The notes under the pieces are model-generated. The model ran no database searches and was not told the DNA's origin. It saw nothing but the letters and a program-made list of their open reading frames with translations. Positions 4,788 to 52,227 of a DNA stretch of 64,000 nucleotides are shown in pieces (position 1 is the first letter of the stretch; each line of letters opens with the position of its first letter). This DNA is from Terriglobia bacterium (lineage in GTDB: Bacteria; Acidobacteriota; Terriglobia; UBA7540), in assembly GCA_035712365.1 (NCBI GenBank), contig DASTAW010000048.1, positions 62,001-126,000 on the forward strand, read 5' to 3'. The translations under genes and the position numbers were made by a program.

Positions 4788-4806
4788 ACTTCATGAAAGG
4801 AGCATC

Positions 4807-9997: not shown

Positions 9998-10084
9998 GAA
10001 AATAGAGAGCAATAAAATTGGCGCGCGATCAGGACCTTCCACTCGCAACAGGCCCATCGGCCACGACGTAAAACGCTCTCTAAA

Positions 10085-36462: not shown

Positions 36463-36549
36463 CCAGTTCGCTGCTGTCCGATTCAGCGTCTATCGCCTGC
36501 GCGAGCACCGGGTGTAAGATTTTGGCATCAAACTTCAATCAGGAGAGCT

Positions 36550-38439
36550 ATGAAATTTCAGTTCGATACTCAGGAAGCTGCCGCAGTCGTAGATGGAATC
36601 ATCCATCACACTAAAGGTCGCGCCATCGATGCAACGACCCGTGAACAACTCGTGAAACACTTCGGAGATCTCGGTCTGGATACCTTCAGGCCCTACGCCC
36701 GGTCTCTCGCAATAGATCCCGTCCATCCGTCGAATTTTTACCTGGCGGCTGACGTCGTGAACGATGGTAAAGCCACTCCGCTGTTGCTGCACATGGCTGT
36801 TGACCCATCTTCGTCCGGCAAGCTTCTCGCTCAGCCCGCCCGCCATGAGCGCGTTCAGGTTGACGGGAAGGAAGTGCTGCTCAGCTTCATCCCTTTCGGC
36901 AGCCATGACCATGAAACCATCAGGAAGTTCGCCGAGCAGGTTGATCGGGCGTTTTTGCCGCGGCCGCAACGCTCCGAGCCCGCCGTAGCGGCTGGCAATC
37001 GCCATCCCGAAATCAGTTTGCCCGCTGTATTCGACGCCTACCGGACCATCCTGAACAAGCTGCACGTTAACATGGCCTCAACAGTGCAGCTCTCCGCGAC
37101 TCGCGAGATGACCACTGAGGACGCCTTGGAACAGCGCGACGGCGAGAACCCTGTCGCGACCGGCCACACCCGCGTTTCTATTCGCCACCTGTACCACACC
37201 GGCCTGTGGGCCGCCATCCGTTCCGGCTGGCGCGACGGTTACAGCGCCGAGGCCGACCACTTCATCGTTTCCGGCAATAGCGCAGAAGAGGTCGTCCAGT
37301 CGGTCGAGATGGTCAAGACAGCCATTCGCCACGCAGCCGGCTACACCAAATTCACCACTGACACCTCGCGCCTCTTCGAACTCCAGGCTGATTCCCGGCA
37401 TCCGGATCCGTGGAGCCATTCCGCCGTCAGTGAGAAATTTCAACAGGTGTTTTCCGGCGATGAACAGAGGTGGTTGCGCAGCGAGTTCTCAAAGCCATTC
37501 AAGATCGGCGGCAGGAATTACACATTCGGCGAACCGGAAATCATTCGTCTGGGCGTCAAGTTTGGCCAGAGCCTTAAGCTGAATGAAGAGCTCTATGATT
37601 ACATCATTCAGGCAAAGTCCAGCGCCGGCTTGGGAACCGCGTTCGACTTTGAACCGTCCATCGACGAAGCCGAGACGCTGACGACCGCCAAAGAGCTCCT
37701 GTTTTATATGCACTGGCTGAAGGCGCGCGGCCGGGCCGCTCAGCTTTGCCCGCCGAACCTGGGATTCAAAAAACGCCAGGCTTATCCGGTTGCCATGGCC
37801 ACTTCGCCGGCGGATGGCGTCGGCCTGCTGGATTATTGCCATCACAAAATGTGGCCGGAGCTTCCGGAGCGTGTCGAAAAGGAATTCCGCGGGAAGCCCC
37901 TTGACGAGCTGGCGGCACGCGTTGCGGAGCTGGCCGACGTGGCCAGGAGTTTCGACACCACACTCAGCATCCACTCCGGCAGCGGCAAGCAAGCCGAAGT
38001 CCTGGAGCGGATCGGGAAATCGACGGCGGGGCGTGTAAATTACAAAATCTCCGGCGAGCTTCAGTTGCAGCTTTTCGATGTGCTGCGAAGCCAGCCGGCG
38101 GCTTCCCACTGGCGAAAACTCTATGAGCGGATGGTGATGCGGGCCAACGATTTCGCCGCCACCGGAGCGTTTGGCTGTGAAAGCGAATTGGCAGCTAAAT
38201 ACACATCGTTGGGCCTTGAATACGACCTGGGTGAGGCATCACGCGGTCGCGTTGACGGCAATCTCTTCCTGGTTTTCTGGCTGGGGAACCTGGTGGGTAG
38301 TCGCGATGTGGATTCGCCGGACGGCGACCGGCGCTTTTTCAAAGAGAAAATCGACGAACTTCCGGAAGACCTTCTGGCGGAGGTGCGACGGCGCAACAGC
38401 AGGTACGTTGTCTGGCTGGCTGAGCACCTGCAAGGCTAA
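36550..38439 (+). CDS. Large protein resembling UxaE-type tagaturonate epimerase
   Basis: A 629-residue cytoplasmic protein without signal peptide or membrane segment. The C-terminal half contains TLSIHSGSGK (H475 to K480) and, 12 residues later, RVNYKISGELQLQLFDVLRS. These resemble by eye the HSGSDK and KTAGTS-type segments I associate with tagaturonate/fructuronate epimerases of the UxaE family. It is longer than the roughly 480 residues I expect for that family; the extra part seems N-terminal. Histidine-rich stretches IRHLYHTGLWAA and SAEADHFIVSG could bind metal. The ATG at 36550 has AGGAGAG upstream. Its neighbours (LarA homologue, two SDR dehydrogenases) fit a sugar-acid pathway. The family link is tentative. 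Confidence 0.55.
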   Translation: MKFQFDTQEAAAVVDGIIHHTKGRAIDATTREQLVKHFGDLGLDTFRPYARSLAIDPVHPSNFYLAADVVNDGKATPLLLHMAVDPSSSGKLLAQPARHERVQVDGKEVLLSFIPFGSHDHETIRKFAEQVDRAFLPRPQRSEPAVAAGNRHPEISLPAVFDAYRTILNKLHVNMASTVQLSATREMTTEDALEQRDGENPVATGHTRVSIRHLYHTGLWAAIRSGWRDGYSAEADHFIVSGNSAEEVVQSVEMVKTAIRHAAGYTKFTTDTSRLFELQADSRHPDPWSHSAVSEKFQQVFSGDEQRWLRSEFSKPFKIGGRNYTFGEPEIIRLGVKFGQSLKLNEELYDYIIQAKSSAGLGTAFDFEPSIDEAETLTTAKELLFYMHWLKARGRAAQLCPPNLGFKKRQAYPVAMATSPADGVGLLDYCHHKMWPELPERVEKEFRGKPLDELAARVAELADVARSFDTTLSIHSGSGKQAEVLERIGKSTAGRVNYKISGELQLQLFDVLRSQPAASHWRKLYERMVMRANDFAATGAFGCESELAAKYTSLGLEYDLGEASRGRVDGNLFLVFWLGNLVGSRDVDSPDGDRRFFKEKIDELPEDLLAEVRRRNSRYVVWLAEHLQG

Positions 38440-38457
38440 CGGGCTATGCGTTCAGCG

Positions 38458-39726
38458 TTACGCCGCTTTTGAAACTCTTTCTTCCACGCGGTAAAGCATC
38501 TCGCCGGCGCGCGGCACCAGCAGGATGCCTTCGTCTTCCCTGCCTTTCCATTCCTCCAGGTTGACGCTTGCCGGATCGAGGTAACCGAGGTTTATCCGTT
38601 GGCAGCGCTCTTTGGATATCCCCGTCGCCAGCGTGACCTGGATGCGCGGTGTCTCCTTGCCGGTTGCGGCATCGTACTTCCCCAGCCCCTTGACATGCGT
38701 GGAATGCGCCAGCGCGCTGCCCGGATAGTCCTTGAACCTGTCCCACTGCGCCAGGAAGTAATCGCGGCAATGGTAGCCGATCTCCTCGATGATCCTGCCG
38801 TGGGTGTAGCTGACTTCGGTGATGTGGGGCGAATAGATCACCACTTCGCCGCCGTCGGCTACCGCGGGCTCCATCTTGTACATCCCTTTCGCGCCGGTCC
38901 ACAGGTCGTCATAGAGCGTCGGCATCACAGAAAGGACACGCCGAAAAGGCTTCTTCACGTAGATGATGTGTTTGCGCGCCGAGAGCTCTGACGCGGCTTT
39001 CCAGGCTTCCTTTGCTGAGCCAAAGTAAAGTCCCTCAAAGCCGCCGTGGGTTACCACCAGCGCAAAGCACGCCGCGGGCCGGTCAATCATCCCGGCAGCC
39101 CGGTCAATGATGGCGCGCACCGGCGTATAGCCTGCGCCGATGATCTTGTAGTTGGTCATCAGCGCGCCCGTCCAGTGGGTCTGATTGATGATTTCCGATC
39201 CGCCGATGCCCGGGAAAAAGTATTTGTTGCCGCCCGAGAATCCAACCACTTCGTGGGGGAAAACCGGCCCGCAAATGATGATCTGGTCATAGTCCAGAAT
39301 CATCCTGTTCAGGCGGACAGGAATGTCCTTCTCGAGCACGCCGCCGGTGATCTCACCTGTTTCCTTTGCTGGAATCACGCCAAGCGTCGCGAAGGTTTCC
39401 GGCTTCTCCCAGTGGTGATTGAAGATGCGGATTTTGCCAACTTTTCCGTCCACCACCTCGCGGCCCACCAGCTTGCTGAGGTTCTTGTCATCCATCAAGG
39501 GATGCGTCCCAAGCGCCACCAGGTAATCAAGCGCGGCCACGCGCAGGGACAACTCACGCTCAAACAGATCGAACATCAGCGGCATGGGCATCGTGCGAGT
39601 GCCGTCCGGGATAATGATCAGCACGCGTTTACCGTCAACAGCCAGCGTGGCCAGACCTTCCTGGACAGTCCGGCTTATTTCCTCGCTGGTCAGATGGCGG
39701 TCCGCAAAACCCTGTCCCATCACCAT
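38458..39726 (-). CDS. LarA-family nickel-pincer racemase/epimerase homologue
   Basis: A 422-residue member of the lactate-racemase (DUF2088/LarA) family. In L. plantarum LarA the key residues are H108, H174, K184 (carries the nickel-pincer nucleotide) and H200. Here H158, K168 and H184 have exactly the same spacing (10 and 16), in PHEVVGFSGGNKYFFPG and NQTHW, and a HH pair at 104-105 (FNHHW) can supply the first histidine. So it is probably an active nickel-pincer enzyme. Because its neighbours handle sugar acids, the substrate is more likely an aldonate or uronate-derived 2-hydroxy acid than lactate; this is inference. ATG at 39726 has GGAGGAGG upstream. Cofactor genes larB, larC and larE are not in the window. 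Confidence 0.85.
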   Translation of the reverse strand: MVMGQGFADRHLTSEEISRTVQEGLATLAVDGKRVLIIIPDGTRTMPMPLMFDLFERELSLRVAALDYLVALGTHPLMDDKNLSKLVGREVVDGKVGKIRIFNHHWEKPETFATLGVIPAKETGEITGGVLEKDIPVRLNRMILDYDQIIICGPVFPHEVVGFSGGNKYFFPGIGGSEIINQTHWTGALMTNYKIIGAGYTPVRAIIDRAAGMIDRPAACFALVVTHGGFEGLYFGSAKEAWKAASELSARKHIIYVKKPFRRVLSVMPTLYDDLWTGAKGMYKMEPAVADGGEVVIYSPHITEVSYTHGRIIEEIGYHCRDYFLAQWDRFKDYPGSALAHSTHVKGLGKYDAATGKETPRIQVTLATGISKERCQRINLGYLDPASVNLEEWKGREDEGILLVPRAGEMLYRVEERVSKAA

Positions 39727-39789
39727 GGCAGGCCTCCTCCAAAATCCCTTCTTCGCACGGCGTGCTTCGGCCGCCGGCCTCCGCTACCC

Positions 39790-40623
39790 CTATACTCCAC
39801 TATACGCCGAAAAACCGCCGTCGATTGGCACAATGACCCCCGTCACAAACGCCGACGCGGGCGACAATAGCCACAAGACGGCCCCAAACAGGTCTTCCGG
39901 ACTGCCAAAACGGGCCATGGGCGTATGGTCAATAATTGCCTTGCCACGCGCGGTCAACGCACCCGACTTCTCATCGGTGAGAAGAAACCTGTTCTGCTGA
40001 GTCAGGAAGAAACCCGGCGCGATGGCGTTCACCCGAATTTTTGGCGAGTATAACTGCGCCAGGTGCACTGCCAGCCATTGCGTAAAATTGCTGACGCCCG
40101 CCTTCGCGGCCGAGTAGGCCGGTATGCGCGTCAGCGGGCGGAAAGCATTCATGGAGGATATGTTGAGGATGGTTCCGCGGCCTTTCTCCGCCATGACTTT
40201 GCCGAATACTTGCGAGGGAAGGACGGTCCCGATGATGTTGAGATCGAAGACCCATCGCAGGGCGTCGGCGGGCAGATCAAAAAACGCGAGATCCGCGCTG
40301 GTGGTTGCCTGGGGCTTATTGCCCCCGGCTGCATTCACCAGGCAATCGACCCCGCCGAACTTCTCCAGCACGGCTGTCGAGGCCTGGCGCAGGTTGTCTG
40401 CGTCCAGGACGTTGGTCTTTACCGTGAACGTCTGGCGCGCGCGCGGGCCCATCCTCTCAAGGATGTCCTTGGCCGGATCAAGATTCAGATCCAGAATCGC
40501 CACGTTGGCGCCGCATCCCACAAGCGCCTGCGCGATCTCGCCCCCCAGTATTCCCGCTCCTCCGGTGATGGCGACCGTTTGTCCGGTAAAGTCATACATC
40601 CGCCTCAGTTGCTCCAAGTCCAT
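39790..40623 (-). CDS. SDR-family oxidoreductase, fructuronate reductase / mannonate dehydrogenase-like
   Basis: Short-chain dehydrogenase of 277 residues. The Rossmann motif reads AITGGAGILGGEIAQALVG, and the acidic VAILDLNLDPA suggests NAD(H). VNAAGGN replaces NNAG, SSMNAF carries the catalytic serine, and YSAAKAG the YxxxK pair. It begins DLEQLRRMYDFTGQTVAI, an opening I associate with SDR-type mannonate/fructuronate oxidoreductases. The ATG at 40623 has GGAGG upstream. It is likely co-transcribed with the LarA homologue 63 bp downstream. Confidence 0.85.
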   Translation of the reverse strand: MDLEQLRRMYDFTGQTVAITGGAGILGGEIAQALVGCGANVAILDLNLDPAKDILERMGPRARQTFTVKTNVLDADNLRQASTAVLEKFGGVDCLVNAAGGNKPQATTSADLAFFDLPADALRWVFDLNIIGTVLPSQVFGKVMAEKGRGTILNISSMNAFRPLTRIPAYSAAKAGVSNFTQWLAVHLAQLYSPKIRVNAIAPGFFLTQQNRFLLTDEKSGALTARGKAIIDHTPMARFGSPEDLFGAVLWLLSPASAFVTGVIVPIDGGFSAYSGV

Positions 40624-40840
40624 TCAGTTATAGCCTCCCATCAGGTTTTTGAAATGAGCACGCCTTCGTGTTTGCGCAGGCCTGTTTGTGCGTGGGCCCA
40701 GCGCCCGCCCAGCCTGTCCGCGGGTGTGAGTAAGGTGGAAGCCTAACACTCCGGCAACCGTTGACGCAAGCGATGCACCGCTGGACATTGCCCGGGTTTT
40801 TTCCTTGATGGTAGGATGGCACTCACGAATCCAGCGGCGG

Positions 40841-40846
40841 AAAGGA
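40841..40846 (+). promoter_or_regulatory. Ribosome binding site deciding the SDR start
   Basis: AAAGGA lies six bases before a TTG at 40853 that gives LSYYKGLSLEGKCALV. Upstream in-frame starts (TTG 40805, ATG 40808) lack such a site. Confidence 0.65.
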
Positions 40847-40852
40847 ATTCGC

Positions 40853-41632
40853 TTGTCTTACTACAAAGGACTGAGTCTCGAGGGAAAGTGCGCTCTGGTA
40901 TTTGGTGGAACCAGCGGGCTGGGCAAGGCTATCGCCATGGGTTTCGCCGAAGCCGGCGCCGATGTCGCCGCAGTGGGGCGCCGGGCTCAAGAAGTCCAGA
41001 GAACCGCGCGGGAAATCGAGGCGGCGGGAAGAAGAACCTTCGAGATGACCGGTGATGTGACTGACCGCGACCAGATTCAGGCGGTGATCCGCCGGATGCT
41101 GGACGAAATGGGCCGGATCGACATACTTGTAAATTCCGCCGGAGTGACGAAGCGGGTCCCGTCGTTTGACGTGGAAGACAGCCTGTGGAAAGAGATCATG
41201 GAAATCAATCTGAAGGGAGTCTGGAACACCTGCCAGATGGCCGGCCGGGTCATGAGAGATCAGCATTATGGGCGCATTATCAATGTCGCCTCGATCGCCT
41301 CCTTCGTCAGCGCGCACGAGGTTGCTCCCTACGCAGCCAGTAAGGGTGGAGTGGTTCAGATCACGCGCTGCCTGGCGGCGGAATGGGCCAAACACAACAT
41401 CAGAGTCAACGCCATCGCGCCGGGCGTCTTTGAAACCGACCTCAACCGCGACATCATCAACCGGCCCGAAAGGAAGGCATCGATCTTTGCACACACGCCG
41501 ATGAAGCGTTTTGGACAGGTGGAGGAAATAAAAGGCGCGGCCATCTTTCTGGCCTCAGATAGTGCAAGCTTCGTCACCGGAGCTTCCATTCCGGTCGATG
41601 GCGGCTTTCTGGCGCAGGGCATTGGCGAGTAG
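40853..41632 (+). CDS. SDR-family oxidoreductase, gluconate 5-dehydrogenase / KduD-like
   Basis: Short-chain dehydrogenase of about 259 residues. It shows GGTSGLGKAIAMGFAEAGAD, NSAGVTKRVP, IINVASIASF and YAASKGGVVQ (catalytic Tyr-x-x-x-Lys), and ends DSASFVTGASIPVDGGFLAQ. The YYKGLSLEGKCALV opening and overall pattern resemble dehydrogenases acting on gluconate or 2-keto-3-deoxygluconate. It is divergent from the other SDR gene, with a shared 230-bp promoter region. TTG at 40853 is preferred on Shine-Dalgarno grounds. Exact substrate unknown. Confidence 0.85.
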   Translation: MSYYKGLSLEGKCALVFGGTSGLGKAIAMGFAEAGADVAAVGRRAQEVQRTAREIEAAGRRTFEMTGDVTDRDQIQAVIRRMLDEMGRIDILVNSAGVTKRVPSFDVEDSLWKEIMEINLKGVWNTCQMAGRVMRDQHYGRIINVASIASFVSAHEVAPYAASKGGVVQITRCLAAEWAKHNIRVNAIAPGVFETDLNRDIINRPERKASIFAHTPMKRFGQVEEIKGAAIFLASDSASFVTGASIPVDGGFLAQGIGE

Positions 41633-41665
41633 TTCCGGCGCTTCGCCCAGCAAAAAGCGTCCCGC

Positions 41666-43450
41666 TCAGTATTGCCACCTGGTGCCAAACCGCACTTCGT
41701 TTCCGCGAAGCGGGCCCAGAATCTGCGCCGTGTTGTAATGCGTGTATCCGAGAGTCAGGCTTACATGCCTGCTGACTCGCAGCGAAAGGCTGGGGCTCAC
41801 CTGCCAGGCGTTTGTCACCGCTCCCTCGCGTCCCGTTTGCTGGACGCCAATACCGCCGCTCAAGTCGTATCCCAACGGGCCGAAGAGAGTTCCATAAATG
41901 CGCGGAACAAGCTCATGGCGCTGGTAAAAGCTGGGATCAAAAAAACCCATGAAAACGTTCTGCCCCTGGCCCGCAAATCCCTCGATCAAACCTTCATAGC
42001 CCAAATCCAATGACAACACGGAGGATTTGAGCAGATGCCCGGTAAAGACGACCGAACCGCCGCGCCCCTGGTCATGATCTGCCAAAACAACCCCTTGCGG
42101 AACGCCGCTCACATTCACTGTGTGGGAGTAATCCTCGGAGGTGTATTGCCCGTACCAGTAGGCCAGATGCAGCTCCGTCCGGGGGTTGAAGAAGAAGTTG
42201 GCACGTGCCTGGAGGCGGTCCTCGATGACTCCCAGCCTTGTGGAGAGCGGAGTGTACGTGATGGCCGACTTTGTTGCATCCAGGTCCAGGGAAAGTTTTT
42301 TTGTAAGCCCTAAGCTGATGCCTGCCAGCCCCACAGGTCGCTCCGGCGCTCCTTTGACGAGATCGGGCTGCCCGGGAATGGAGACGGGTTCGCCGGGACC
42401 GAAGCGGGTGAACCCCGCGCCGCCGCGCACCGTCAGCCAGCGACCGAAGCGTGTGGACTGCCAGTAGAGAAAATTGTAGGGAGCGGTGGCGCCCGTGATT
42501 CCCGTCGGGATCTGATCGCCATTGCTGTCGCGCAGAGGCCCAGGAGGACTTTCGCTGGGAACAGAGGTGAAAGAAATGTGAGATGTGGTTGCGGGAAACA
42601 CATTCATGGCAATTGTGGTCCCGTAGGTGTACATCCGCAGGTCTTCGTTGGGCAGCCCTGAACGGCCGTTGGACGCGCTGGGCGGCCCGATTTCGCGCGC
42701 GTATGCCGCCGTGGTCATCAGCGTCACCCGCGCTTCCCCAAGCACCCGGTTGCGCAGGGATGCCACCTCGGCATCGCCCGGGCTCAGCTTGTCCGCCTGG
42801 TCCAGGAGACGCAGGGTTTCGCGGCGGTGATGTAGCGCGTGTTCGATGCTGGCCAGCAGAAAGACCGCGGAAAAGTCATTCGGCTGCTTTTCAACCGCCA
42901 GCGCTGCCCCGGCCTGGGCCTCGGGAAGCTTGCCCCGGTAGAATGCGATGCGAGCCCTGCCCAGCAGAGCCGCCGAGTCCTGCGGGTTCTGCTTCAGCAG
43001 AAGATCGTATTGTGTCACCGCCGCGCCATATTGGTGATCGAAGGTCAGCAGGCGAGCAAGCTCAAGCCTGGAGTCGCGGTCGTCGGGATAAATTTCAAGA
43101 ACGCGCCGATAGTCCTGAATGGCGGCCTGTCGCTGGTTTAACCTCGATTCCTGGTATGCAAGTCCCTTCAATGCATCCCGGTCTTTCGGGTTGATTTGAA
43201 GCCGCTGGCGATAGAATTCAATCCACAACAGCGGCGAGGCATCGGCCGGAGGTCTCAAGGCGCTCCGCTGGGCGACCTGCTGGACCTGGCTGTTGCTCTG
43301 TGCCGCCATTACCGCATGCGGTTCTATCACGCAGACCACAAACAAGCAAAGCAGGCCCTGAAACAGGCAGATTCTCCAGCCGCACGTCCGTTCGATCACG
43401 CCGTGAAGGACAGGCATAGCAAGGCGAGACTTTCTGAAATCCGATGCCAT
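41666..43450 (-). CDS. TPR protein with C-terminal outer-membrane beta-barrel (polysaccharide export porin-like)
   Basis: A 594-residue exported protein. A signal peptide or anchor lies at about residues 27-49 (LFQGLLCLFVVCVIEPHAVMA). Residues about 75-225 are TPR repeats (NPKDRDALKGLAYQESRLNQ, YPDDRDSRLELARLLTFD, NPQDSAALLGRARIAFYRGK). Residues about 240-594 alternate like beta-strands and end FGTRWQY, a barrel-type C-terminus. This TPR-plus-barrel layout is that of PgaA, BcsC and PelB-type exporters of exopolysaccharide. It follows a synthase-type glycosyltransferase on the same strand with 100 bp between, supporting that role. An alternative ATG at 43417 would shorten the leader. Confidence 0.75.
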   Translation of the reverse strand: MASDFRKSRLAMPVLHGVIERTCGWRICLFQGLLCLFVVCVIEPHAVMAAQSNSQVQQVAQRSALRPPADASPLLWIEFYRQRLQINPKDRDALKGLAYQESRLNQRQAAIQDYRRVLEIYPDDRDSRLELARLLTFDHQYGAAVTQYDLLLKQNPQDSAALLGRARIAFYRGKLPEAQAGAALAVEKQPNDFSAVFLLASIEHALHHRRETLRLLDQADKLSPGDAEVASLRNRVLGEARVTLMTTAAYAREIGPPSASNGRSGLPNEDLRMYTYGTTIAMNVFPATTSHISFTSVPSESPPGPLRDSNGDQIPTGITGATAPYNFLYWQSTRFGRWLTVRGGAGFTRFGPGEPVSIPGQPDLVKGAPERPVGLAGISLGLTKKLSLDLDATKSAITYTPLSTRLGVIEDRLQARANFFFNPRTELHLAYWYGQYTSEDYSHTVNVSGVPQGVVLADHDQGRGGSVVFTGHLLKSSVLSLDLGYEGLIEGFAGQGQNVFMGFFDPSFYQRHELVPRIYGTLFGPLGYDLSGGIGVQQTGREGAVTNAWQVSPSLSLRVSRHVSLTLGYTHYNTAQILGPLRGNEVRFGTRWQY

Positions 43451-43550
43451 CTACGGGTTCCTCGTTTGAAAATTCCTGCTGAACCAGGGAGTGCGCTGTG
43501 CTCCGGTTCGGCCTTATCTGGCCGTCGCGGCGTAAAATTGGCAGCACGGT

Positions 43551-44978
43551 TCAGGAGACCTGCCCCGTGACTCCAACGTGAGTGACTTTTTCCCAGTGCC
43601 GGGACCCGGTCAGGAACCGCACAACGCCTTCAAACCGGTAGTAAAGCACCAGTTGGCGATAGCCGAGGTTTTCGATGAAGGCAAACCACAGCAACTTTGC
43701 AAGGTCCGCATAACTCGGGTAACGGCGGTAAGTGAGTTCTTCCAGGAGAACCGCGCCGATGGAGAGCAGTCCGCCGTAGGCAAGGCTGAGCAGGACGAAC
43801 AGCAGGTAGAGCAAGGCCGGCACCATGCCAAAAATGATGGCCAGCGGTACCATGAAGTAGCCCAGAAACTCCACCACGGCCCCGAGGGCTTCCACATAAA
43901 GGTGAAAAGGAAAGCTGAAGTTTCCCACGATTCCGTACTTGCGGTTGAAAAGCATTTCGGAATGTTTCCAAAGTGTCTGGCATAACCCAAGCTGCCACCG
44001 CCGGCGCTGCTTGCCCAGCATCTTCAGCGTGGCCGGGCACTCCGTCCAGCAGACCGGATCGGAAGTGAACGACATCCGAATCCGCCGCTTGCGCAGCACC
44101 GCCCAATGATGCAGTTGGATAATCAGGTCCATGTCTTCGGTGACGGTATCATGGGCGAATCCTCCCGCTTCCATTACGGTTTCGCGGTGGAAGACCGCAA
44201 ATGCGCCGGAAACAATCAGCGTGCCGCCCAGCAGGTCCCATCCGGTGCGGCCAAACAGAAAGCTGCGGAGGTATTCCACCACCTGGAAGCGCTCGAGCGA
44301 CGATTTGGGAAGTCCCACCTTAGCCACGCGCCCATCGCGAATCTGGCAGCCGTTCATCACGCGGACAATCCCGCCGCTGGCGACGGTATTGACGGGCGAA
44401 TGGATCACAGGCCGCATCAGGCGTAACAGGGCGTCCCTCTCGAGGATCGAGTCCGAATCCAGAGTGCAGAAATAGGGTGTGCGGCAGATATTGATGCCGA
44501 CATTCAAAGCGTCCGGCTTGCCGCCGTTTTCCTTGCTGACCACCAGAAGATTGGGCAGCTCCGGGTTCATGTAGAAACCGAGCACTGGCTGGGTTGGAAT
44601 TTGCGGGCGATAGATAAGGTCCATCTTCACCAACTTGAAATGCTCGACCAGGTGGGCCAGCGTGGCGTCGTTCGAGCCGTCGTCCACCACCACGACCTCA
44701 AGTTCCGGGTAGTCGGTCTGGAGCGTAGACTTCGTGGTCTCTACGATGATCTGCTCTTCATTCCATGCCGGGATGACAATGGTGACGGGAGGCGTCACGG
44801 GCGACTCGCGGATTTCATCCATGTCCTGGTAGGCCAGGCGGCGGTTGTAGAGCCACACCGTTGCCAGGGACAGCACCATCAGCAGCGTGTAGACACCGTT
44901 TCCGATAAGGAAATAGGAAACGATGAGGAAGTTGAACGTGTTCATCCCGTGGATAAACACCTGCCGCCACAATTCCAT
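43551..44978 (-). CDS. Processive family 2 glycosyltransferase (exopolysaccharide synthase)
   Basis: Membrane synthase of about 475 residues, PgaC/BcsA/hyaluronan-synthase type. Two N-terminal helices (FNFLIVSYFLIGNGVYTLLM) precede the GT-A domain with VTIVIPAWNEE, the DDG pair at about residues 99-100, DSD at about 174-176, TED at about 280-282 and QRRRW at about 324-328, the full processive set. Several C-terminal helices could form the translocation channel. No PilZ domain is present. The ATG at 44978 lies one base after the stop codon region of the HEAT gene (4-bp gap) and has AAGGG upstream; an upstream TTG at 45044 would overlap the HEAT gene by 62 bp and is less likely. Confidence 0.88.
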   Translation of the reverse strand: MELWRQVFIHGMNTFNFLIVSYFLIGNGVYTLLMVLSLATVWLYNRRLAYQDMDEIRESPVTPPVTIVIPAWNEEQIIVETTKSTLQTDYPELEVVVVDDGSNDATLAHLVEHFKLVKMDLIYRPQIPTQPVLGFYMNPELPNLLVVSKENGGKPDALNVGINICRTPYFCTLDSDSILERDALLRLMRPVIHSPVNTVASGGIVRVMNGCQIRDGRVAKVGLPKSSLERFQVVEYLRSFLFGRTGWDLLGGTLIVSGAFAVFHRETVMEAGGFAHDTVTEDMDLIIQLHHWAVLRKRRIRMSFTSDPVCWTECPATLKMLGKQRRRWQLGLCQTLWKHSEMLFNRKYGIVGNFSFPFHLYVEALGAVVEFLGYFMVPLAIIFGMVPALLYLLFVLLSLAYGGLLSIGAVLLEELTYRRYPSYADLAKLLWFAFIENLGYRQLVLYYRFEGVVRFLTGSRHWEKVTHVGVTGQVS

Positions 44979-44982
44979 GAGA

Positions 44983-46467
44983 CTACCCTTCCCTCCGGCG
45001 CCGGGCGTCTGCCAGAGCCTCTTGAGCAACGATGCGAACTTCAAAATCAGGTTCCTTCACCGCCACCTGCTCCACCCAATGCTGGATCTGAGGGTCAGGC
45101 GACTGCCCCAACAACTGAAGAAAGTGTTTGCGCAGTTTTCCGTTCCCTGCCTCATCTTCGAGCGTCGCAACCATGCAGCTGGTCTTACCCAATTCGGCCA
45201 GATGCCGCAGGACTGCCGTTTCCCTGCCGTTGCCCGTTTCGGTCGAGCGCGTCAACAGGGCGGGAACCAGGCCCGCGCGCTGGAACTCATCCGCAATCTG
45301 TTCCCGGCTGTACCGATCGCGCGTGGAAAGAAAGTGGGTGGTGAGGAGGTCGAGGCCTGGCTGCCCGAAACCTCTCAGCGTCCGCACCGCCGTTTCGCGC
45401 ACCCGCCAGTTGGGGTCCGTGAGTGCCTTTGAAATTCGCGCGGCGTACGGAAGGAACCTGTCGCCGACAAACGACCTCACTGCATGCAGCCTGACAAACC
45501 ATACAGGATCCTCCAGCAGCTTGAGCAGCATCGAAGCAGCACGCTCTCCGGCAAGGCGCGCAATCACCGGCGCAGACCGGGCCCGAACGTCGGGATTGTC
45601 GTCAAACGGCAGGTCTGCCAGGAAGATCTCTGCCATCTCATCGTTGAAATTCCTGTTGTCCAAACGGAATTCCGGCCTGCCGGAAGCTTCCCGCTCCACT
45701 ATTTCCCGCATAACGTCCGTGGCCAGAAAGCGAATTCGCGGATTGGTGTGCTGAAGTGAATCGCGCAGCTTGCCGGCGCTCTGGAGCGAAAAACCCACCA
45801 GCGCGGATTTTAAGGTTCGCACCGAGAGGTTGGAGGCGGGATCCAAAACCGCCTTGTGGAGACGATCGACCAGGGGCAGGAAGCTCCCGGGGTGATGGAT
45901 CGCAGCAAGCGAGCGCACGGCCACCACCTGAAGGTCCGGATTGGGACCTTCAAGCGCCTTGACCAGCAGGGGCCAGCTCGCCTCATGGCGAACCAGTCCC
46001 AGGTTTTCAGCGCTCTTGGAACGAACCAGGAAATGCAGGAATTTGACCCGCCTCAGCAGCCCCTGTGGATTGTAAAGGGCTTCACGCAATGAGGCGTGGT
46101 CAATCTGCCCCATGAGACGTTGCTGCCAGATCTTGACCAGCCCGAGGTCTTCGCAAAGCCGCCTCAGCGTCGGCTCTTCCGCAGGCGTAGCTTTCTTTTC
46201 GAGACAAAGCCGTTCGAGAACGGAAAGGCGATCGGGGCTAGAGATCCCGCGCAACTCCTCAAGCCCGCCAGAATAATCGAGACGCCCTGAAAGGACCCCC
46301 GCAACGATGGGACCGTATCGTTCGCGGAACGTGTCAACCCGATTGAAGAATTTTTTGCGCCGGTGCCGGCGGTGGAAAACGACCCCGATCAGAAAAAAGT
46401 TTCCCAGCAGAGCAAGAATGAAAAATGCAAGGACCAGCAGAGTTACGTTTTCGATCAAAAATGGCAT
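44983..46467 (-). CDS. Membrane-anchored HEAT-repeat protein of the polysaccharide cluster
   Basis: A 494-residue protein with one N-terminal transmembrane helix (about residues 8-32, TLLVLAFFILALLGNFFLIG) and a basic stop-transfer segment (HRRHRRKKFF). The rest, from about residue 150, is helical HEAT/ARM-like repeats: PDLQVVAVRSLAAIHHPGSF, NPRIRFLATDVMREIVERE, NPDVRARSAPVIARLAGERA, PVWFVRLHAVRSFVGDRF, DPNWRVRETAVRTLRGFGQ. The N-in topology implied by the basic segment would leave the repeats cytoplasmic, where they could scaffold or regulate the synthase; this is inference. It is the first gene of the three-gene unit and ends 4 bp before the GT2 start. Confidence 0.8.
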   Translation of the reverse strand: MPFLIENVTLLVLAFFILALLGNFFLIGVVFHRRHRRKKFFNRVDTFRERYGPIVAGVLSGRLDYSGGLEELRGISSPDRLSVLERLCLEKKATPAEEPTLRRLCEDLGLVKIWQQRLMGQIDHASLREALYNPQGLLRRVKFLHFLVRSKSAENLGLVRHEASWPLLVKALEGPNPDLQVVAVRSLAAIHHPGSFLPLVDRLHKAVLDPASNLSVRTLKSALVGFSLQSAGKLRDSLQHTNPRIRFLATDVMREIVEREASGRPEFRLDNRNFNDEMAEIFLADLPFDDNPDVRARSAPVIARLAGERAASMLLKLLEDPVWFVRLHAVRSFVGDRFLPYAARISKALTDPNWRVRETAVRTLRGFGQPGLDLLTTHFLSTRDRYSREQIADEFQRAGLVPALLTRSTETGNGRETAVLRHLAELGKTSCMVATLEDEAGNGKLRKHFLQLLGQSPDPQIQHWVEQVAVKEPDFEVRIVAQEALADARRRREG

Positions 46468-46802
46468 AGCGTTCGAGGGCTGGCGTTAAGCCCTCTTGTC
46501 CCGTGTCCAAACTTCTGGGCTATCGCGGGCTGCGGCGGAGGTCCTCCACCTCCCAGTTATCGGCTGTCGAGGGAAAATGATGAGCGGGATTCAGAAGAAT
46601 CGCGGATGAAGGCGGGCGCCGCCCCGGAGGAGCAGGTAAGGTCAGGCAGGTTACGGCGAGGCAGGTAGAGGCTACCTCGATGAGAGAGACGATGGGAGCC
46701 TGCGTCGAGAAAGGTCAGTGAGTTTAGTGGCTTTTATAGCCTTGATGGAACGGGCCAATCCCGATGGGCTGAAAGGAGTTCAATAATGGTGCATGGCAGA
46801 AG
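46468..46802. other. Intergenic region upstream of the HEAT-GT2-TPR cluster
   Basis: 335 bp between the HEAT gene start and the VKOR-fusion stop, both on the minus strand. It should hold the cluster promoter, but no convincing -35/-10 pair was found. A good AAAGGAG followed by ATG at 46786 on the plus strand opens only a 23-codon frame running into the neighbouring gene. Confidence 0.4.
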
Positions 46803-48440
46803 CTACTGCTTAACCGGAAGCCCGGCCTTTTTCCAGCCGGTCAGACCGTCCCGGTAAACGTTGACGTCACCAAAGGGGAACCCTTGCGCCAGCAGAATGC
46901 GGCCTGCTGACCGGCTGAAGGCGCAGATGTCGCCGCCGGATTCGCCTCCCTGATAGAGCACAATCATCTTGTTTTTGGGCAGGCGGGTCCATTGCTGCTC
47001 AAAGGAATCTATCGGCATATTGAGGGCCCCCGGGATATGCCCTGCCTGAAAATCGCTTGCGGTCCTCACGTCTACAAACAGGGCCTGAGAGTTGGCGTCG
47101 TAGAGTTTCTGTGCCTGCGACGTCCCGATCATCTTCGGCTGGCGCTTCTTGGCCTCGTCCTCGCTGCAGGCTGCCGCGGAGTTTTGGTAGCCCGCAAGGA
47201 GATTGGATGTCCCTCCCAGGACCGGCATGGTGTCCGTTGAAGTCTTGGACGGCGTTTGGCTGGGGACGGATTTCTGGCTGGCCTTGTTTTTTTCGGCGGG
47301 GGCCGACGCCGGTTCGGCAAGCTTGGGGCCGCCGTCCGGGGCGGAACCTTCCACGGCGGCTATTTTCAATTCGTTTTCCACGAGTTGAGCAAAGGTCGGA
47401 TAAGGCATGGGCCCCACAGTCATCTGGCCGTTGATAAAAAAGGTGGGAGTGGCGTGGACTCCCAGCGCCCTGCCGTCCATGAGGTCCTGGTCAACCCGTG
47501 ATGCCATTTCGCCTTTCTGAAGGCAGGCGACAAATTTCTGCGAGTCGAGCCCCATCTCGCCTGCATACCGGTTGATAGCCGGCAGGGTTAAATCTTCCTG
47601 GTGATCGTAGAACATGTCCACCGCCTGCCAGAACTTGCCCTGCTGGCCCGCGCATTCAGCAGCCTCTGCTGCCTTCTCAGACTCGGCATGGACGTTAACA
47701 AGAGGATATTCACGGAACGCAAAGCGGACCCGGTCGCCATAGTTCTCCCGAATTTTCCTGGCTGACACTTCAGCCTGGCGGCAGGCCGGGCACTTGAAAT
47801 CCCCAAATTCAACGATGGTGACTTTGGCGTTCGGGTCGCCATAGAAATGGGTGTCGGGACGAACAAGGTGGTTCCTGACTGCCTGGTTCGAAGGAGGCTT
47901 CGGCGGAGGCATGCTGCCGTGCGAGGTGAGAATGATAAAGGCGGGTACCCCCAGCACAAAAGCGAACAGGATGAGGGCGAAATTCCGCTGCACCAGAGAG
48001 AGCGCCTGGGCGGGTTCCAGAGACTTCGGCGGGTGCGAACGGTCCGCGATGGACAGAATGAAAATTGCAGTCACCAGCAGAGCGGACAGCACACACCACA
48101 TGCACCACGAATGCAGCACGAAAGCTTCAATCCCGGTGAGATAGACCGAAAAAAGAAATCCCGCGCCTGCAACTACCATCACAACGTGTTGCGTAAGGCG
48201 GACATAGGTACTCGGCAACAAAGGGTAAAGGAAAAGCAACAACACCAGGAAGGCATACATGAACACGCCGTATATGGGCACCGGCAGGCCGCCAAGGTGG
48301 GAGTACGCGCTGGCGCGAACGGCATCGCAGCCTCCTCCCATGCAAACCATGGGGTGGGCTGGCGAGGTGTATTCCCACAGGAGATAGATAGAGTCAAACA
48401 GCCCAACAAGGCTTAGAACCATCAGCAAGATTTTTCGCAT
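46803..48440 (-). CDS. VKOR-DsbA-rhodanese fusion protein (disulfide-bond formation)
   Basis: A 545-residue fusion of three modules. Residues 1-150: integral-membrane vitamin-K-epoxide-reductase domain with loop cysteines C33 and C38 and the active-site WCMWC (C113, C116). Residues about 185-365: DsbA/thioredoxin-like domain with FGDFKCPACRQ (C217, C220) and the cis-proline HATPTFF (P332). Residues about 430-545: rhodanese-like domain (LFVDVRTASDFQAGHIPGAL), but the catalytic cysteine position in IVLYQGGESGG is glutamine 497, with C506 nearby. A Pro/Ser/Lys linker joins the last two. VKOR-DsbA fusions make disulfides in proteins exported from cells lacking DsbB; the added inactive rhodanese is unusual. 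ATG at 48440 with AGAGGA upstream. Confidence 0.92.
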   Translation of the reverse strand: MRKILLMVLSLVGLFDSIYLLWEYTSPAHPMVCMGGGCDAVRASAYSHLGGLPVPIYGVFMYAFLVLLLFLYPLLPSTYVRLTQHVVMVVAGAGFLFSVYLTGIEAFVLHSWCMWCVLSALLVTAIFILSIADRSHPPKSLEPAQALSLVQRNFALILFAFVLGVPAFIILTSHGSMPPPKPPSNQAVRNHLVRPDTHFYGDPNAKVTIVEFGDFKCPACRQAEVSARKIRENYGDRVRFAFREYPLVNVHAESEKAAEAAECAGQQGKFWQAVDMFYDHQEDLTLPAINRYAGEMGLDSQKFVACLQKGEMASRVDQDLMDGRALGVHATPTFFINGQMTVGPMPYPTFAQLVENELKIAAVEGSAPDGGPKLAEPASAPAEKNKASQKSVPSQTPSKTSTDTMPVLGGTSNLLAGYQNSAAACSEDEAKKRQPKMIGTSQAQKLYDANSQALFVDVRTASDFQAGHIPGALNMPIDSFEQQWTRLPKNKMIVLYQGGESGGDICAFSRSAGRILLAQGFPFGDVNVYRDGLTGWKKAGLPVKQ

Positions 48441-48593
48441 TGTCCTCTGTCCTACGGCGCCTGGGTCCGGTGGGACTCAGACGGTCCTTTATTTGCCTTG
48501 GGTGTTGCCCCATAAACCACTGGCGGGCAGCGCCTCCAGTCTGAGCAAGCACACCCCTAAGAGTATAAAGCCAAGCTTCGCCCCGCGAAACCT

Positions 48594-49409
48594 CTACGGC
48601 GAGGTTCTCCGCAAATGCATGGGATTGGCCGGCCCCCGGCCCCGGCCGAGCGGAAGACCTTCGCGGATGGCGGCGGTCACGAAGTCCTTGGCCAGGGCCA
48701 CGCTCTGCCGCACCGTGTTCCCCTTTGCCAGACCTGATGCTAGGGCTGAGGCAAAGATGCAGCCCGTCCCGTGGGTATTTTGCGTTGCGATGCGGGGCAA
48801 ACGAAACTCGACAAACTCATGCCCGTCAAAAAGCACATCCACGGCCCTCGTGCCTTCCGAATGCCCGCCTTTAACCACGACATTCTGCGAACCGAAGCCA
48901 TGGATCAGCCTCGCAGCCTCCTTCATCCCCTCGAGGCCGTCAATCGCCCGCCCCAGCAGAGCACCCGCTTCGTGCAGGTTTGGGGTTACCACCGCAGCCA
49001 GCGGCAGCAAGCTTTCCCGCAGAGTCATAATGGCTTGGGGGTCGAGTAACGGTATCCCGCTGGTGGAAACCATCACCGGGTCCACGACGACAGGAATTTC
49101 ACGGTGCCGCCTGATTTCGTCCGCCACGGCCCGAATAATCCCGGGATTCGCAAGCATCCCTGTTTTGATCGCGTCGCAGCCCACATCTTCAATACACACC
49201 TTCATCTGCAAGGCCACAAACTCCGGGTCCGTTTCCACTATCCCAAGGACACTCTCCGTGCTCTGGGCGGTCAAAGCCGTGATCGCGGTCATTGCGTAGA
49301 CGCCAAGCGCGGACGCCGTCTTCAAATCGGCCTGAATGCCGGCGCCGCCGCTGGAATCAGAGCCGGCCACAATCAGCAGACGCGGGAGCTTGGCTGCGCT
49401 TGCTTCCAT
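48594..49409 (-). CDS. thiD: Hydroxymethylpyrimidine / phosphomethylpyrimidine kinase
   Basis: Ribokinase-family enzyme phosphorylating HMP twice for thiamine synthesis. The 271-residue product shows LLIVAGSDSSGGAGIQADLK and AMTAITALTAQ at the N-terminus. VVVDPVMVSTSG, VTPNLHEAGALLG and the C-terminal anion hole TQNTHGTGCIFASALASGLA with the catalytic aspartate-region GTGC are present. Start ATG at 49409. It lies 153 bp after the stop of no co-directional partner, so it is probably transcribed alone or with the VKOR gene. No thiamine riboswitch was seen upstream. Confidence 0.94.
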   Translation of the reverse strand: MEASAAKLPRLLIVAGSDSSGGAGIQADLKTASALGVYAMTAITALTAQSTESVLGIVETDPEFVALQMKVCIEDVGCDAIKTGMLANPGIIRAVADEIRRHREIPVVVDPVMVSTSGIPLLDPQAIMTLRESLLPLAAVVTPNLHEAGALLGRAIDGLEGMKEAARLIHGFGSQNVVVKGGHSEGTRAVDVLFDGHEFVEFRLPRIATQNTHGTGCIFASALASGLAKGNTVRQSVALAKDFVTAAIREGLPLGRGRGPANPMHLRRTSP

Positions 49410-49536
49410 AGCTTTTTCATTTTACCTGCATTGGGTCCGCATTAAAGATGGCTTGGAACCGGCCGGCCAAGATCCGTGCTGCTGGGATGGCTGAGAGATA
49501 AAATGAAGGGGCTGCCAATTCCTGAGGAGGTGCAAG

Positions 49537-49818
49537 ATGCCTGCAATCATTCGCGTTGAACGATGCTGTCCCGGCAGCTTTCGAGTCACCATCACGGAAG
49601 GCGCCAGCAAGTCCTCGCACACGGTTTCGCTTAGCCGCGAATATTACGAAATGCTCACCGGAATGCAGGTCTCTCAGGAAGTACTCATTGAACAGTCGTT
49701 CCAATTCCTGCTGGAGAACGAGCCCAGGGAATCCATATTGCAGCAGTTTGATTTGCCCCTCATCGGCCGCTACTTTCCAGACTACGAAAGTGAGATCCGC
49801 AGGCGCCTGGCCGGTTAG
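49537..49818 (+). CDS. Small conserved-looking protein of unknown function
   Basis: A 93-residue soluble protein, MPAIIRVERCCPGSFRVTI at the start, with no recognisable domain. It is supported by a strong GAGGAGG Shine-Dalgarno five to six bases before ATG at 49537 and by balanced composition (mixed alpha/beta, acidic C-terminal half: YFPDYESEIRRRLAG). Overlapping frames on both strands (for example 49417-49854 minus) lack a good ribosome site. It is divergent from thiD and followed by an intergenic repeat. I do not recognise the family. Confidence 0.65.
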   Translation: MPAIIRVERCCPGSFRVTITEGASKSSHTVSLSREYYEMLTGMQVSQEVLIEQSFQFLLENEPRESILQQFDLPLIGRYFPDYESEIRRRLAG

Positions 49819-49829
49819 CGATTCAGCAA

Positions 49830-49950
49830 ATCTTTGAAAAACCCCCTCTGCCACGTCGTCCTGAGTGAAGCGAAGGACCTGTCATATTCGTTTAGGTGAC
49901 ATACAGCAATGCTTCGCTGCGGCAGCATGACGGGTGGGCTTTTTCACGAA
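49830..49950. repeat. MITE-like palindromic intergenic repeat, copy 4
   Basis: Closely similar to copy 1: GAAAAACCCCCTCTGCCACG, then GTCCTGAGTGAAGCGAAGGA, ACATACAGCAATGCTTCGCT and CAGCATGACGGGTGGGC, closing with CTTTTTCACGAACTC. The internal inverted repeat is degraded (TGAGTGAAGCGAAG against CTTCGCTGCGGCA). It lies between two convergent genes. Confidence 0.75.
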
Positions 49951-49958
49951 CTCGGCCG

Positions 49959-51380
49959 TCACGGGTTCGCGTAGCCAAGACTCTTCAGCATTTCGAGATC
50001 CTGTTTCGAAAGCCGGCCCTGGGGATTAAGTCCGCGATTGGTTTGCTTGTACCAGGTATCCAGGTCTTCCCGATATCCGCTGAGGTTTGCGATGCTCACA
50101 TTGCTCGAAGACAGTTCCTTTTCCTGTGAAAAGGCATCGCCCAGCCGGTAAACCTTGAGATTATCGTTGTCCCCGGAGGTAATCACCTTGATGTCGCCCT
50201 CGACGAATCCCCGCAACGAAGGGGACCGCTTCGTTTCTGCCCAGGTCCAGAACATGCTCATCCACTGCGGTGGCAGCAGCGTCGGTTCCGCATAGGTCAG
50301 AAAAAAGGTAGGCTGCTCCGTAGCATTCTTTCCGCCATTCGCGATCACTGGATTCAGGCTATACCCAGATTCGCCCGGAAACTTGAATTCGAGACCTGCA
50401 TAACTGAGGATCGTCGGCAAAATGTCAACCGTGGAAACATTGGTGCTGATCCGCTCCCCCTGCGGGATTTCTTTGGGGTAGGAATAGATCATTGGAATGT
50501 GTACTGCCGGCTGGTCGATGTGGTCGCCGTGTCCCCAGATCCCGTTTTCGCCGAGGCCCTCGCCATGGTCCGCCACAAAAACGATGAGCGTGTTGTCTCG
50601 AACGCCCAGGTCGTCCAGCAGCTTCAGCGTTTTCCCCAGATCGTTATCATCAAAAGCGATTTCGCTGTCGTAGGCACGGATCTTGGCAGCCCGGTCTGCA
50701 TCAACCGACGCCGGTATCGGAAAGATTTTGGCGTTCTTTTCCTGGGGAAGGTTGGCGAACTCGGGATGCAGATCATAGGGATGGTGAGGATCAAAATAGT
50801 GGACCCAGAGGAAAAACTTCGAGCGGCCGTGCTTTTCCAGCCAGCGGCGGCTCGCGTCGCCCACTTCGTTGCCGCGGCGGGCTGCATTAACCATTTTGTA
50901 GTGATACGAGAAATTCTCGTTGTAGACGTTGAAGCCGCGCCCCAGACCCGTGATGCCCTTCTTCAGAGGCCAGGCGCTGATAAATGCCGCCGTCCGGTAT
51001 CCCAGGTGATGGAGTACCTGGGCCAGCAAAACCGGGTGGGGACTTTCGGTCATGTGCATGCCGTTGATGGTCGCACCGTGCTGCTGGGGGTAGAGAGAGG
51101 TCATCATCGAGATGTGAGAGGGGCCGGTGAGAGGAATGGCCGTATAGGCGTTTTCAAACAGGACCCCGTGCGCCGCCAGGCTGTCAATTGTCGGCGAGGT
51201 CCGCCGGGCGTACCCATAGCAGGAAAGATGATCGGCCCGCGTCGTGTCAAAAGTGACCAGCAGAACATTCGGCGCGTCTTTCAGATCGAAATGGGCCTTG
51301 CTGACCTTTGCCCGCTGTCCGGCAAAAGAAACCAACGGCACGAGAACAACCGCCAGCACAGCGCCAGAGATTCGGCGCAT
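49959..51380 (-). CDS. Sulfatase-like hydrolase / transferase (alkaline phosphatase superfamily)
   Basis: A 473-residue exported protein with a signal peptide (residues 1-21, ISGAVLAVVLVPLVSFA). The metal-binding VLLVTFDTTRADHLSCYGY (D45) and the second site VFVADHGEGLGENGIWGHGD fit the sulfatase fold. The position of the modified nucleophile reads PLTGPSH (T85), not C/S-x-P-x-R, so formylglycine cannot form; a threonine nucleophile as in phosphotransferases of this superfamily is more likely. Substrate unknown. ATG at 51380 has GGAGGTG six bases upstream. It lies downstream of the ABC genes with 73 bp between. Confidence 0.85.
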   Translation of the reverse strand: MRRISGAVLAVVLVPLVSFAGQRAKVSKAHFDLKDAPNVLLVTFDTTRADHLSCYGYARRTSPTIDSLAAHGVLFENAYTAIPLTGPSHISMMTSLYPQQHGATINGMHMTESPHPVLLAQVLHHLGYRTAAFISAWPLKKGITGLGRGFNVYNENFSYHYKMVNAARRGNEVGDASRRWLEKHGRSKFFLWVHYFDPHHPYDLHPEFANLPQEKNAKIFPIPASVDADRAAKIRAYDSEIAFDDNDLGKTLKLLDDLGVRDNTLIVFVADHGEGLGENGIWGHGDHIDQPAVHIPMIYSYPKEIPQGERISTNVSTVDILPTILSYAGLEFKFPGESGYSLNPVIANGGKNATEQPTFFLTYAEPTLLPPQWMSMFWTWAETKRSPSLRGFVEGDIKVITSGDNDNLKVYRLGDAFSQEKELSSSNVSIANLSGYREDLDTWYKQTNRGLNPQGRLSKQDLEMLKSLGYANP

Positions 51381-51453
51381 GGAAACACCTCCAGTAATCA
51401 GTATAAAGCAGCCACCCTGCGGAAACGGGCATGGTCAGAATTTCCGAAGGGGC

Positions 51454-52227
51454 TCAGCGCGGAAAACGGCCTTCGAATCTCTCGACCCATTCGTGCGAGG
51501 GCTCAAGGTCTCCCCTCATCAGTTCACGTTCTACGCTGCCATCTTTCATTTGGATGATCCGGTCGGCGCGCAATGCAACCTCAGGGTTGTGGGTCACCAT
51601 CACGATGGTCAAGCCCAGATCTGCCTTCAGCCGCAGCAGCAGGTCCAGCACCGCGTCCGCATTTCTTGAATCCAGGTTCCCAGTCGGCTCGTCAGCCAGC
51701 AGAATGTCCGGGTCGTTAATGAGGGCCCGTGCGATGGCGACGCGCTGCTGCTCGCCGGAGGAGAGTCCACTTACTTTCCGCAGCCGCTTTTTTTCCAGCC
51801 CTACGGCCGCCAGGAGGCTGTCAATCGATTTTGTAGAGGACCGCACCTTCCATCCCAGCAGCCGCGGAGCTTCGATGTTGTCCCGCGCGGAAAGGAAGCT
51901 CAGCAGATTAAACCGCTGAAAAACGAAACCCATCCGGATGTTCCGCATTTGCGCCCGGGCCGTGTCCCCCAACGAGGAGATCGAGACGCCGTCGATCAGC
52001 ACTTCGCCCCCGGTCGGTTCCGCCAGGCCCGCGATCAGGTAAAGAAGAGTCGACTTGCCGGAGCCGGAAGGTCCCATAATGGCTGTAAACTGCCCGGCAG
52101 GAATTCTCAGATTCAGCGCATTGACAGCAGGTGGAGCGCCAGGTCCACCGTCATAAACCTTGGTCAACGCGCGCGTCTCGATCAGGATTCGCGGCCCTCC
52201 GTCGTCAATGCGGGCGCCATTATTCAT
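51454..52227 (-). CDS. ABC transporter ATP-binding protein (MacB/LolD type)
   Basis: A 257-residue ATPase subunit. Walker A is GPSGSGKST (about residues 52-60), the signature LSSGEQQRVAIARAL and Walker B DILLADEPTGNLDS, followed by the H-loop VMVTHNPEVAL. The DEPTGNLDS form is typical of the LolD/MacB/FtsE subgroup. The ATG at 52227 overlaps the permease stop by 8 bp, so the pair is translationally coupled; a longer in-frame opening to 52308 lies inside the permease gene. Confidence 0.93.
   Translation of the reverse strand: MNNGARIDDGGPRILIETRALTKVYDGGPGAPPAVNALNLRIPAGQFTAIMGPSGSGKSTLLYLIAGLAEPTGGEVLIDGVSISSLGDTARAQMRNIRMGFVFQRFNLLSFLSARDNIEAPRLLGWKVRSSTKSIDSLLAAVGLEKKRLRKVSGLSSGEQQRVAIARALINDPDILLADEPTGNLDSRNADAVLDLLLRLKADLGLTIVMVTHNPEVALRADRIIQMKDGSVERELMRGDLEPSHEWVERFEGRFPR

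Follow-up and report, generated by a model that had tools for sequence, protein, structure and literature searches.

The locus described here raises the question of whether a HEAT-repeat protein, a family 2 glycosyltransferase (GT2) and a tetratricopeptide repeat (TPR) protein ending in an outer-membrane barrel work together as one polysaccharide secretion machine, and whether such a machine belongs to any named system. The three genes are found in a Terriglobia bacterium of the phylum Acidobacteriota (NCBI GenBank assembly GCA_035712365.1, contig DASTAW010000048.1), where they occupy positions 41666-46467 of the window, i.e., the whole stretch of 64,000 nucleotides that was analysed. The sequence data support a putative operon coding for one machine that makes and exports a sugar polymer, and we consider it probable that the operon exists and that its product is an extracellular polysaccharide. 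The constant unit across distant hosts appears to be the HEAT-GT2 pair; the exit varies, and the barrel seems to lie outside the core.

All three genes are located on the minus strand in the order HEAT, GT2 and TPR-barrel, in agreement with the initial annotation, which had described them as co-directional. The HEAT gene (44983..46467) encodes P0002 (494 aa), the GT2 gene (43551..44978) encodes P0001 (475 aa) and the barrel gene (41666..43450) encodes P0003 (594 aa, ending in WQY). The HEAT stop codon is followed by a 4-bp gap and the GT2 ATG at 44978, and the spacing claimed at the outset holds with this start; the program that listed the open reading frames (ORFs) had chosen an alternative start, an upstream TTG at 45044. 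A 100-bp spacer (43451..43550, minus strand) with a ribosome-binding-site-like GAGGA ahead of the ATG separates the GT2 stop codon from the barrel gene. No terminator-like site was found in this gap, and the count of such sites in the region was 6 compared to 6.2 in shuffled sequences. A Pfam scan of 13 flanking genes (35920-55295) detected no PilZ domain, deacetylase, BcsB or PgaD, whose absence had also been claimed from the first inspection.

The GT2 P0001 matches PF00535, PF13641 and PF13632, all over their cut-offs, and contains the motifs DDGS (position 99), DSD (174), TED (280) and QRRRW (324). These motifs had been pointed out before, and their key residues D100, D174, D176, E281, D282, Q324, R325, R327 and W328 do not vary across an alignment of 18 sequences. 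Based on these models and the processive-type motifs, P0001 is a putative inner-membrane polysaccharide synthase, which would act processively. Its best NCBIfam model is that of the poly-N-acetylglucosamine (PNAG) synthase with 119.5 bits, compared to a cut-off of 422.3; the cellulose synthase model yields 52.4 bits versus a cut-off of 699.1, and solved cellulose synthases are among its weak sequence matches. On a profile of HEAT-linked GT2s, the linked GT2s listed score 406-806 bits, where close kin score high by construction because Acidobacteriota members, the GT2 of the window among them, went into the profile, and the Escherichia coli references PgaC, YaiP, BcsA and NfrB reach 136, 61, 40 and 14 bits, respectively. 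These profile scores were preferred over a GT2 tree with the four E. coli proteins, in which the references sit on very long branches. The GT2 of the window matches the profile and adjoins a HEAT gene whose product has an N-terminal helix, the features by which the HEAT-linked GT2 family is defined.

The HEAT protein P0002 matches the Pfam models HEAT_2 (PF13646, 84.9 bits) and HEAT (PF02985, 59 bits) over their cut-offs and possesses a single N-terminal membrane helix (residues 12-30), as expected from its earlier description as a membrane-anchored HEAT protein. The helix is followed by the sequence RRHRRKK, and the HEAT solenoid is therefore probably cytosolic according to the positive-inside rule. 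An N-terminal helix is present in 73 of 77 linked HEAT proteins, the flank after the helix is the more positive one in 73/73, and two of the four proteins without a helix are cut short. In the genome of the window, HEAT_2 was detected in three reading frames and GT2 in 23 matches in all, and no HEAT match was found at the eight other GT2 loci that could be checked (around 3.6 kb each). Since HEAT_2 frames are few and none lies at these loci, the HEAT gene beside the GT2 of the window suggests more than a chance arrangement.

For P0003, three TPR models score over their cut-offs and no Pfam barrel family does. An AlphaFold model based on 10 sequences (mean predicted local distance difference test (pLDDT) score 78, predicted template modelling (pTM) score 0.58) consists of 11 TPR helices followed by around 16 long strands, the latter number resulting from manual merging of the strand list; the TPR and outer-membrane barrel parts that had been proposed are thus both seen in the model. 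The top Foldseek ranks are taken by BcsC, a PelBC entry and 4y25, whose label reads 'bacterial polysaccharide outer membrane secretin' and which we take to be PgaA. The best Z-score was obtained with chain M of PelBC (25.8, 359 residues, 3.8 Å), followed by BcsC (25.2, 343 residues, 3.8 Å; another BcsC match, 24.6) and 4y25 (24.9, 276 residues, 2.9 Å), and TPR-only structures trail with Z-scores of 22.1 and below. The initial annotation would have given up the reading of a single machine for a barrel that models as a non-export protein; instead, solved polysaccharide exporters are the best matches, and P0003 is by its fold a putative polysaccharide export porin. TIGR04390, the model of the YaiO barrel, found no match in P0003 at E-values of 0.01 or up to 1.

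Are the three genes kept together in relatives? Of 101 genomes, comprising the window's own and its relatives, 51 carry the GT2 (E 1e-40), 41 have HEAT and 40 a TPR-barrel (E 1e-8; part of the latter are TPR-only), and a phylum-wide draw revealed GT2 in 46 of 197 genomes (E 1e-60). Forty loci chosen for holding the GT2 were compared. The near set of 20 consists of 18 from the window's family and two from a second family of the class; in the more distant set of 20, 18 belong to the class and two (L117, L118) are second copies from the window's family. HEAT, GT2 and TPR-barrel occur together in 29 of the 40 loci (16/20 near, 13/20 distant), so the three-gene arrangement does recur in GT2-bearing relatives. 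The first barrel profile mixed the barrel of the window's family with a YaiO-like barrel, and its counts refer to a TPR-barrel of either kind; the number of 29/40 holds when the two types are profiled separately. Three of the near loci lacking the full trio (L121, L125 and L134) lie at contig ends, and the genome of L131 has its barrel match on another contig. In the distant loci L100, L111, L117 and L118, HEAT is present and no barrel match was found, and in L105 the barrel gene has the opposite orientation. In the near set the genes typically run HEAT-GT2-barrel, and most distant loci have the order barrel-HEAT-GT2.

Beyond the class, 84,980 named genomes were scanned with the GT2 alignment, and the best 80 of 585 confirmed loci, which are the nearest ones, were analysed. 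A HEAT gene adjoins the GT2 gene in 78 of these 80 loci (at least 20 bits; weakest 22 bits) and in 77/80 with stricter spans; the misses are L147 and L177, where the GT2 gene stands at the contig start. The hosts include Acidobacteriota, Bacillota, Actinomycetota, Bacteroidota, Ignavibacteriota, Spirochaetota, Nitrospirota, Myxococcota, Balneolota and a methanomicrobial archaeon, among others. In 39 loci flanked by more than 9 kb in both directions, the interval up to 4 kb from the GT2 gene contains 38 HEAT ORFs and that of 4-8 kb none. GT2 matches were also found in 173 plasmid records, and HEAT precedes GT2 in nine of ten inspected (eight annotated, L226 by profile), two haloarchaea included; the tenth, L230, has an unnamed gene in the HEAT position. 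Two plasmids show further arrangements: in L227 (Erythrobacter aureus, 6322-10215) a response regulator-TPR-HEAT-GT2 run is located inside a flagellar gene cluster, and in L233 (Planococcus maritimus, 2786-10221) HEAT-GT2 ends a run with polyphosphate polymerase domain, DUF4956 and CotH kinase genes. In Legionella, the HEAT-GT2 pair has genes for a nucleotide sugar dehydrogenase and epimerases as neighbours, and glmS and a sugar nucleotidyltransferase gene lie beside one haloarchaeal pair.

The outer-membrane exit is far less uniform. The best 80 loci were sorted by record title into 27 monoderm or archaeal ones (Bacillota, Actinomycetota, archaeon) and 53 others, and three profiles detected an outer-membrane barrel within 6 kb in 25 of the 53 non-monoderm loci versus none of the 27. 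Monoderms and archaea thus have the HEAT-GT2 pair with no barrel detected, and the barrel is therefore not part of the core. At least two barrel types adjoin the pair, that of the window's family and the YaiO type, the latter over the TIGR04390 cut-off in L166, L175, L188, L192, L224 and L228 and below it in L106. With barrel-only profiles, no homology outside the TPR part was detected between the barrels of the window's family and the others of the class. The proposal of a single three-gene machine withstands both checks named by the initial annotation, the co-conservation of the trio in relatives and the fold of the barrel protein; however, the constant part is HEAT-GT2 only, and the barrel types differ.

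Receiver-like ORFs were found within 6 kb of the pair in 46 of the best 80 loci, and in the 39 full loci 42 of them lie within 4 kb and three at 4-8 kb, a distance comparison that is the sole control for a profile built from five sequences of the same loci. Pfam confirmed the receiver domain in five sampled ORFs, which are the five behind the profile. In Bacillus infantis (L194), a protein with Hpt, receiver and GGDEF domains is encoded ahead of HEAT, a possible link to cyclic di-GMP (c-di-GMP). A receiver-matching protein of 533-557 aa is encoded upstream of HEAT in the Bacillota loci L194, L205 (Rossellomorea vietnamensis), L213, L215 and L216. In the window, the sole receiver-like frame lies at 55648-56814, away from the operon, and no known c-di-GMP receptor, including PilZ, was recognised in the three proteins or the 13 flanking genes.

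No periplasmic modifying enzyme is encoded beside the operon, in line with the deacetylase noted as absent at the outset; however, this absence looks like a secondary loss. Many loci with the pair encode a large protein with a GH-A fold in addition; in the near set, nine of 20 have it in full length between GT2 and barrel, and in the nearest relatives (L120, L122, L123 and L126) its gene takes the position of the 100-bp spacer of the window. In L121, a piece of the gene stands at the contig end. A remnant of 201 aa is located between GT2 and barrel inside the contig of L134 (8094-8699, minus strand), which could reflect either an ongoing loss or a fault of the assembly. Nine of the 20 near loci, including G002 (L119) of the window's genus, lack the gene. 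No GH-A-fold copy was found anywhere in the window's genome, where the search returned TPR matches alone, and a relocation of the gene within this genome was ruled out on this basis. In the GT2 tree, the window is placed among L144, L148, L145, L139 and L140, in which the GH-A-fold gene is whole or, at a contig end, partial. Because its neighbours in the tree carry the gene, secondary loss is the likelier explanation for the missing enzyme in the window. In G001, which belongs to the window's genus, the enzyme is intact and the barrel more distantly related (27% identity), which would fit a joint exchange of enzyme and exit.

Pfam detected only repeats in 29 GH-A-fold members, apart from one chance-level match to a secretion protein. 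The assignment to a clan GH-A type comes from a structure model of the copy in L144 (pLDDT 82.8, pTM 0.84), which matched GH157 with a Z-score of 24.6 and GH2 and GH5 entries with 22-23.4. GH157, which acts on beta-1,3-glucan, was not used as a clue to the sugar since GH2 and GH5 score nearly equally. The expected catalytic glutamates, assigned by motif, are residues 252 and 425 in L144; both are present in 27/27 first-type copies outside the near set, and four second-type copies have D or E at these positions. Within the near families, both glutamates are retained in only one of ten distinct copies (L120, the same gene as L144). The gene ahead of HEAT on the Planococcus plasmid L233 matches the GH-A-fold profile with 188 bits.

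Taken together, these data suggest a mechanism in which the GT2 would polymerise a nucleotide sugar at the cytosolic face and pass the growing chain through the inner membrane. P0002, held by its one-helix anchor, would keep its solenoid in the cytosol beside the catalytic domain of the GT2 and might be a partner that the synthase requires or its regulatory adaptor, taking the place that PilZ or PgaD has in other systems; a role as regulator or assembly partner is suggested by the constant pairing, the topology and the neighbouring receivers at other loci. The TPR arm of P0003 would then carry the chain across the periplasm, and the barrel would release it. We infer the processivity, the HEAT topology, a contact between HEAT and GT2, the export and the shared machine.

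Several observations weigh against this interpretation. For the GT2, the hydropathy scan yielded no more than two clear membrane helices, and no HEAT match was found beside the GT2 gene in the distant loci L101, L107 and L109. No barrel was detected within 6 kb in 28 of the 53 non-monoderm loci, which contig ends explain for some of them and not for others. In the window's own genome, an unlinked HEAT protein scores 113 bits on the HEAT profile, and this protein and a second one also carry a hydrophobic stretch; the HEAT bit score was dropped as proof of orthology because of this control.

Some of these points would fit a HEAT-GT2 pair that yields a non-polymeric product such as a glycolipid or a wall or surface glycan, with the TPR-barrel being a neighbour with a separate job. 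The few clear membrane helices of the GT2, the monoderm and archaeal pairs for which no barrel was detected and the change of barrel type between lineages all agree with this explanation, which we nevertheless consider unlikely: a secreted polymer needs no outer-membrane exit in monoderms, two unrelated barrel types adjoin the same pair, and P0003 is closer to polysaccharide exporters than to general porins. A divergent pga/ica-like system that makes PNAG and has lost PgaB, with HEAT replacing PgaD, would explain why the PNAG synthase is the best NCBIfam model, why PgaC is the nearest of the four E. coli references and why the P0003 model matches 4y25, our presumed PgaA; glmS and the nucleotidyltransferase gene beside the haloarchaeal pair point in the same direction. 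However, the GT2 stays far below the PNAG synthase cut-off, the linked GT2s listed score far above PgaC on their own profile, and neither a deacetylase nor a PgaD-like gene is among the 13 genes scanned, which makes a PNAG system quite improbable. That a cellulose-like or other known synthase-dependent system was reduced to three genes is the least credible explanation and hardly to be expected; the P0003 model has BcsC among its best matches and cellulose synthases are among the weak matches of the GT2, but the scores on the cellulose synthase model and of BcsA on the linked-GT2 profile are low, and PilZ and BcsB are missing from the genes scanned.

The preferred reading, an operon for the synthesis and export of an extracellular polysaccharide, can be extended tentatively to an ancient, signal-gated class of HEAT-GT2 synthases that spans bacteria and archaea and stands beside PNAG, cellulose, alginate and Pel, although this extension is rather doubtful. 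In such a class, the HEAT solenoid would replace PilZ or PgaD and answer a phosphorelay via the adjoining receiver or receiver-GGDEF genes, and the exits would be lineage-specific: monoderms would lack one, many diderms would use a YaiO barrel, and the window's family would have a porin similar to PelB, BcsC and PgaA. The excerpts of a 2020 survey that bear on this question name five synthase-dependent polysaccharides (PMC7112194). A HEAT-paired synthase spread over many phyla would define another widespread class, apparently without a name so far, whose regulator differs from PilZ and PgaD, and it would offer access to the matrix polymers of Acidobacteriota. With exit barrels exchanged while the synthase stays the same, and with the enzyme decaying within one family, it can be tested directly which parts are essential. 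No description of the HEAT-GT2 pair was found in searches of an open-access library; the mentions of HEAT repeats in the excerpts of PMC10434189, PMC12419801, PMC3826837 and PMC11450739 are unrelated to the pair.

Further genes surround the operon. Directly upstream of HEAT and on the same strand, 46803-48440 encodes a VKOR-thioredoxin/DsbA-rhodanese fusion, whose cluster (c6) also adjoins HEAT in 7/20 near loci. On the other side lie a gene for a 629-aa protein with a partial match to tagaturonate epimerase UxaE (36550-38439, plus strand) and a lactate racemase-like gene (38458-39726, minus strand), which together with two adjacent SDR genes form a sugar-acid neighbourhood.

How does the locus compare with the known systems? 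According to the excerpts of PMC7112194, synthase-dependent secretion involves a synthase, a c-di-GMP-binding subunit, which is typical and not obligatory, a periplasmic modifying enzyme and a TPR-coupled outer-membrane pore. By models and motifs, the window has the inner-membrane synthase and the TPR-coupled pore, whereas a recognisable c-di-GMP subunit and a modifying enzyme were not found at the locus. With PgaABCD/IcaADBC, it shares a processive-type GT2 and, in diderms, a TPR-barrel porin, but it has a HEAT partner instead and its GT2 lies far below the cut-off; a PgaB/IcaB-type polysaccharide deacetylase was not found in the 13 flanking genes, the rest of the genome not having been searched for it. 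Membership of the PNAG systems was rejected on the GT2 score and the lack of deacetylase and PgaD in the genes scanned. The cellulose system BcsA-BcsB-BcsZ-BcsC likewise combines a synthase with a TPR-barrel porin, and the GH-A-fold protein of the relatives stands where its periplasmic hydrolase would be; the GT2 score below the cut-off and the absence of PilZ and BcsB from the genes scanned led to the rejection of this membership as well, the HEAT partner being a further difference. The TPR and barrel of PelB give the best Z-score for P0003, the barrel protein alone having been compared, but the 13 genes scanned do not include PelF, PelG or PelD, the other Pel genes named in PMC7112194. In E. 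coli YaiP-YaiO and NfrB-NfrA, a GT2 gene is clustered with a gene for an outer-membrane barrel or TPR protein, and YaiO-type barrels precede HEAT-GT2 in other phyla, for example in Mesorhizobium ciceri WSM1271 with its order YaiO-HEAT-GT2; however, no HEAT gene is annotated in these E. coli clusters, YaiP and NfrB score low on the linked-GT2 profile, and P0003 lacks the TIGR04390 (PF19413) match. The mismatch to any nameable system suspected by the initial annotation is thus borne out by model scores far below the PNAG and cellulose cut-offs. Judged from its sequence, the locus seems to resemble synthase-dependent systems in its way of working and to fit none of the known ones tested.

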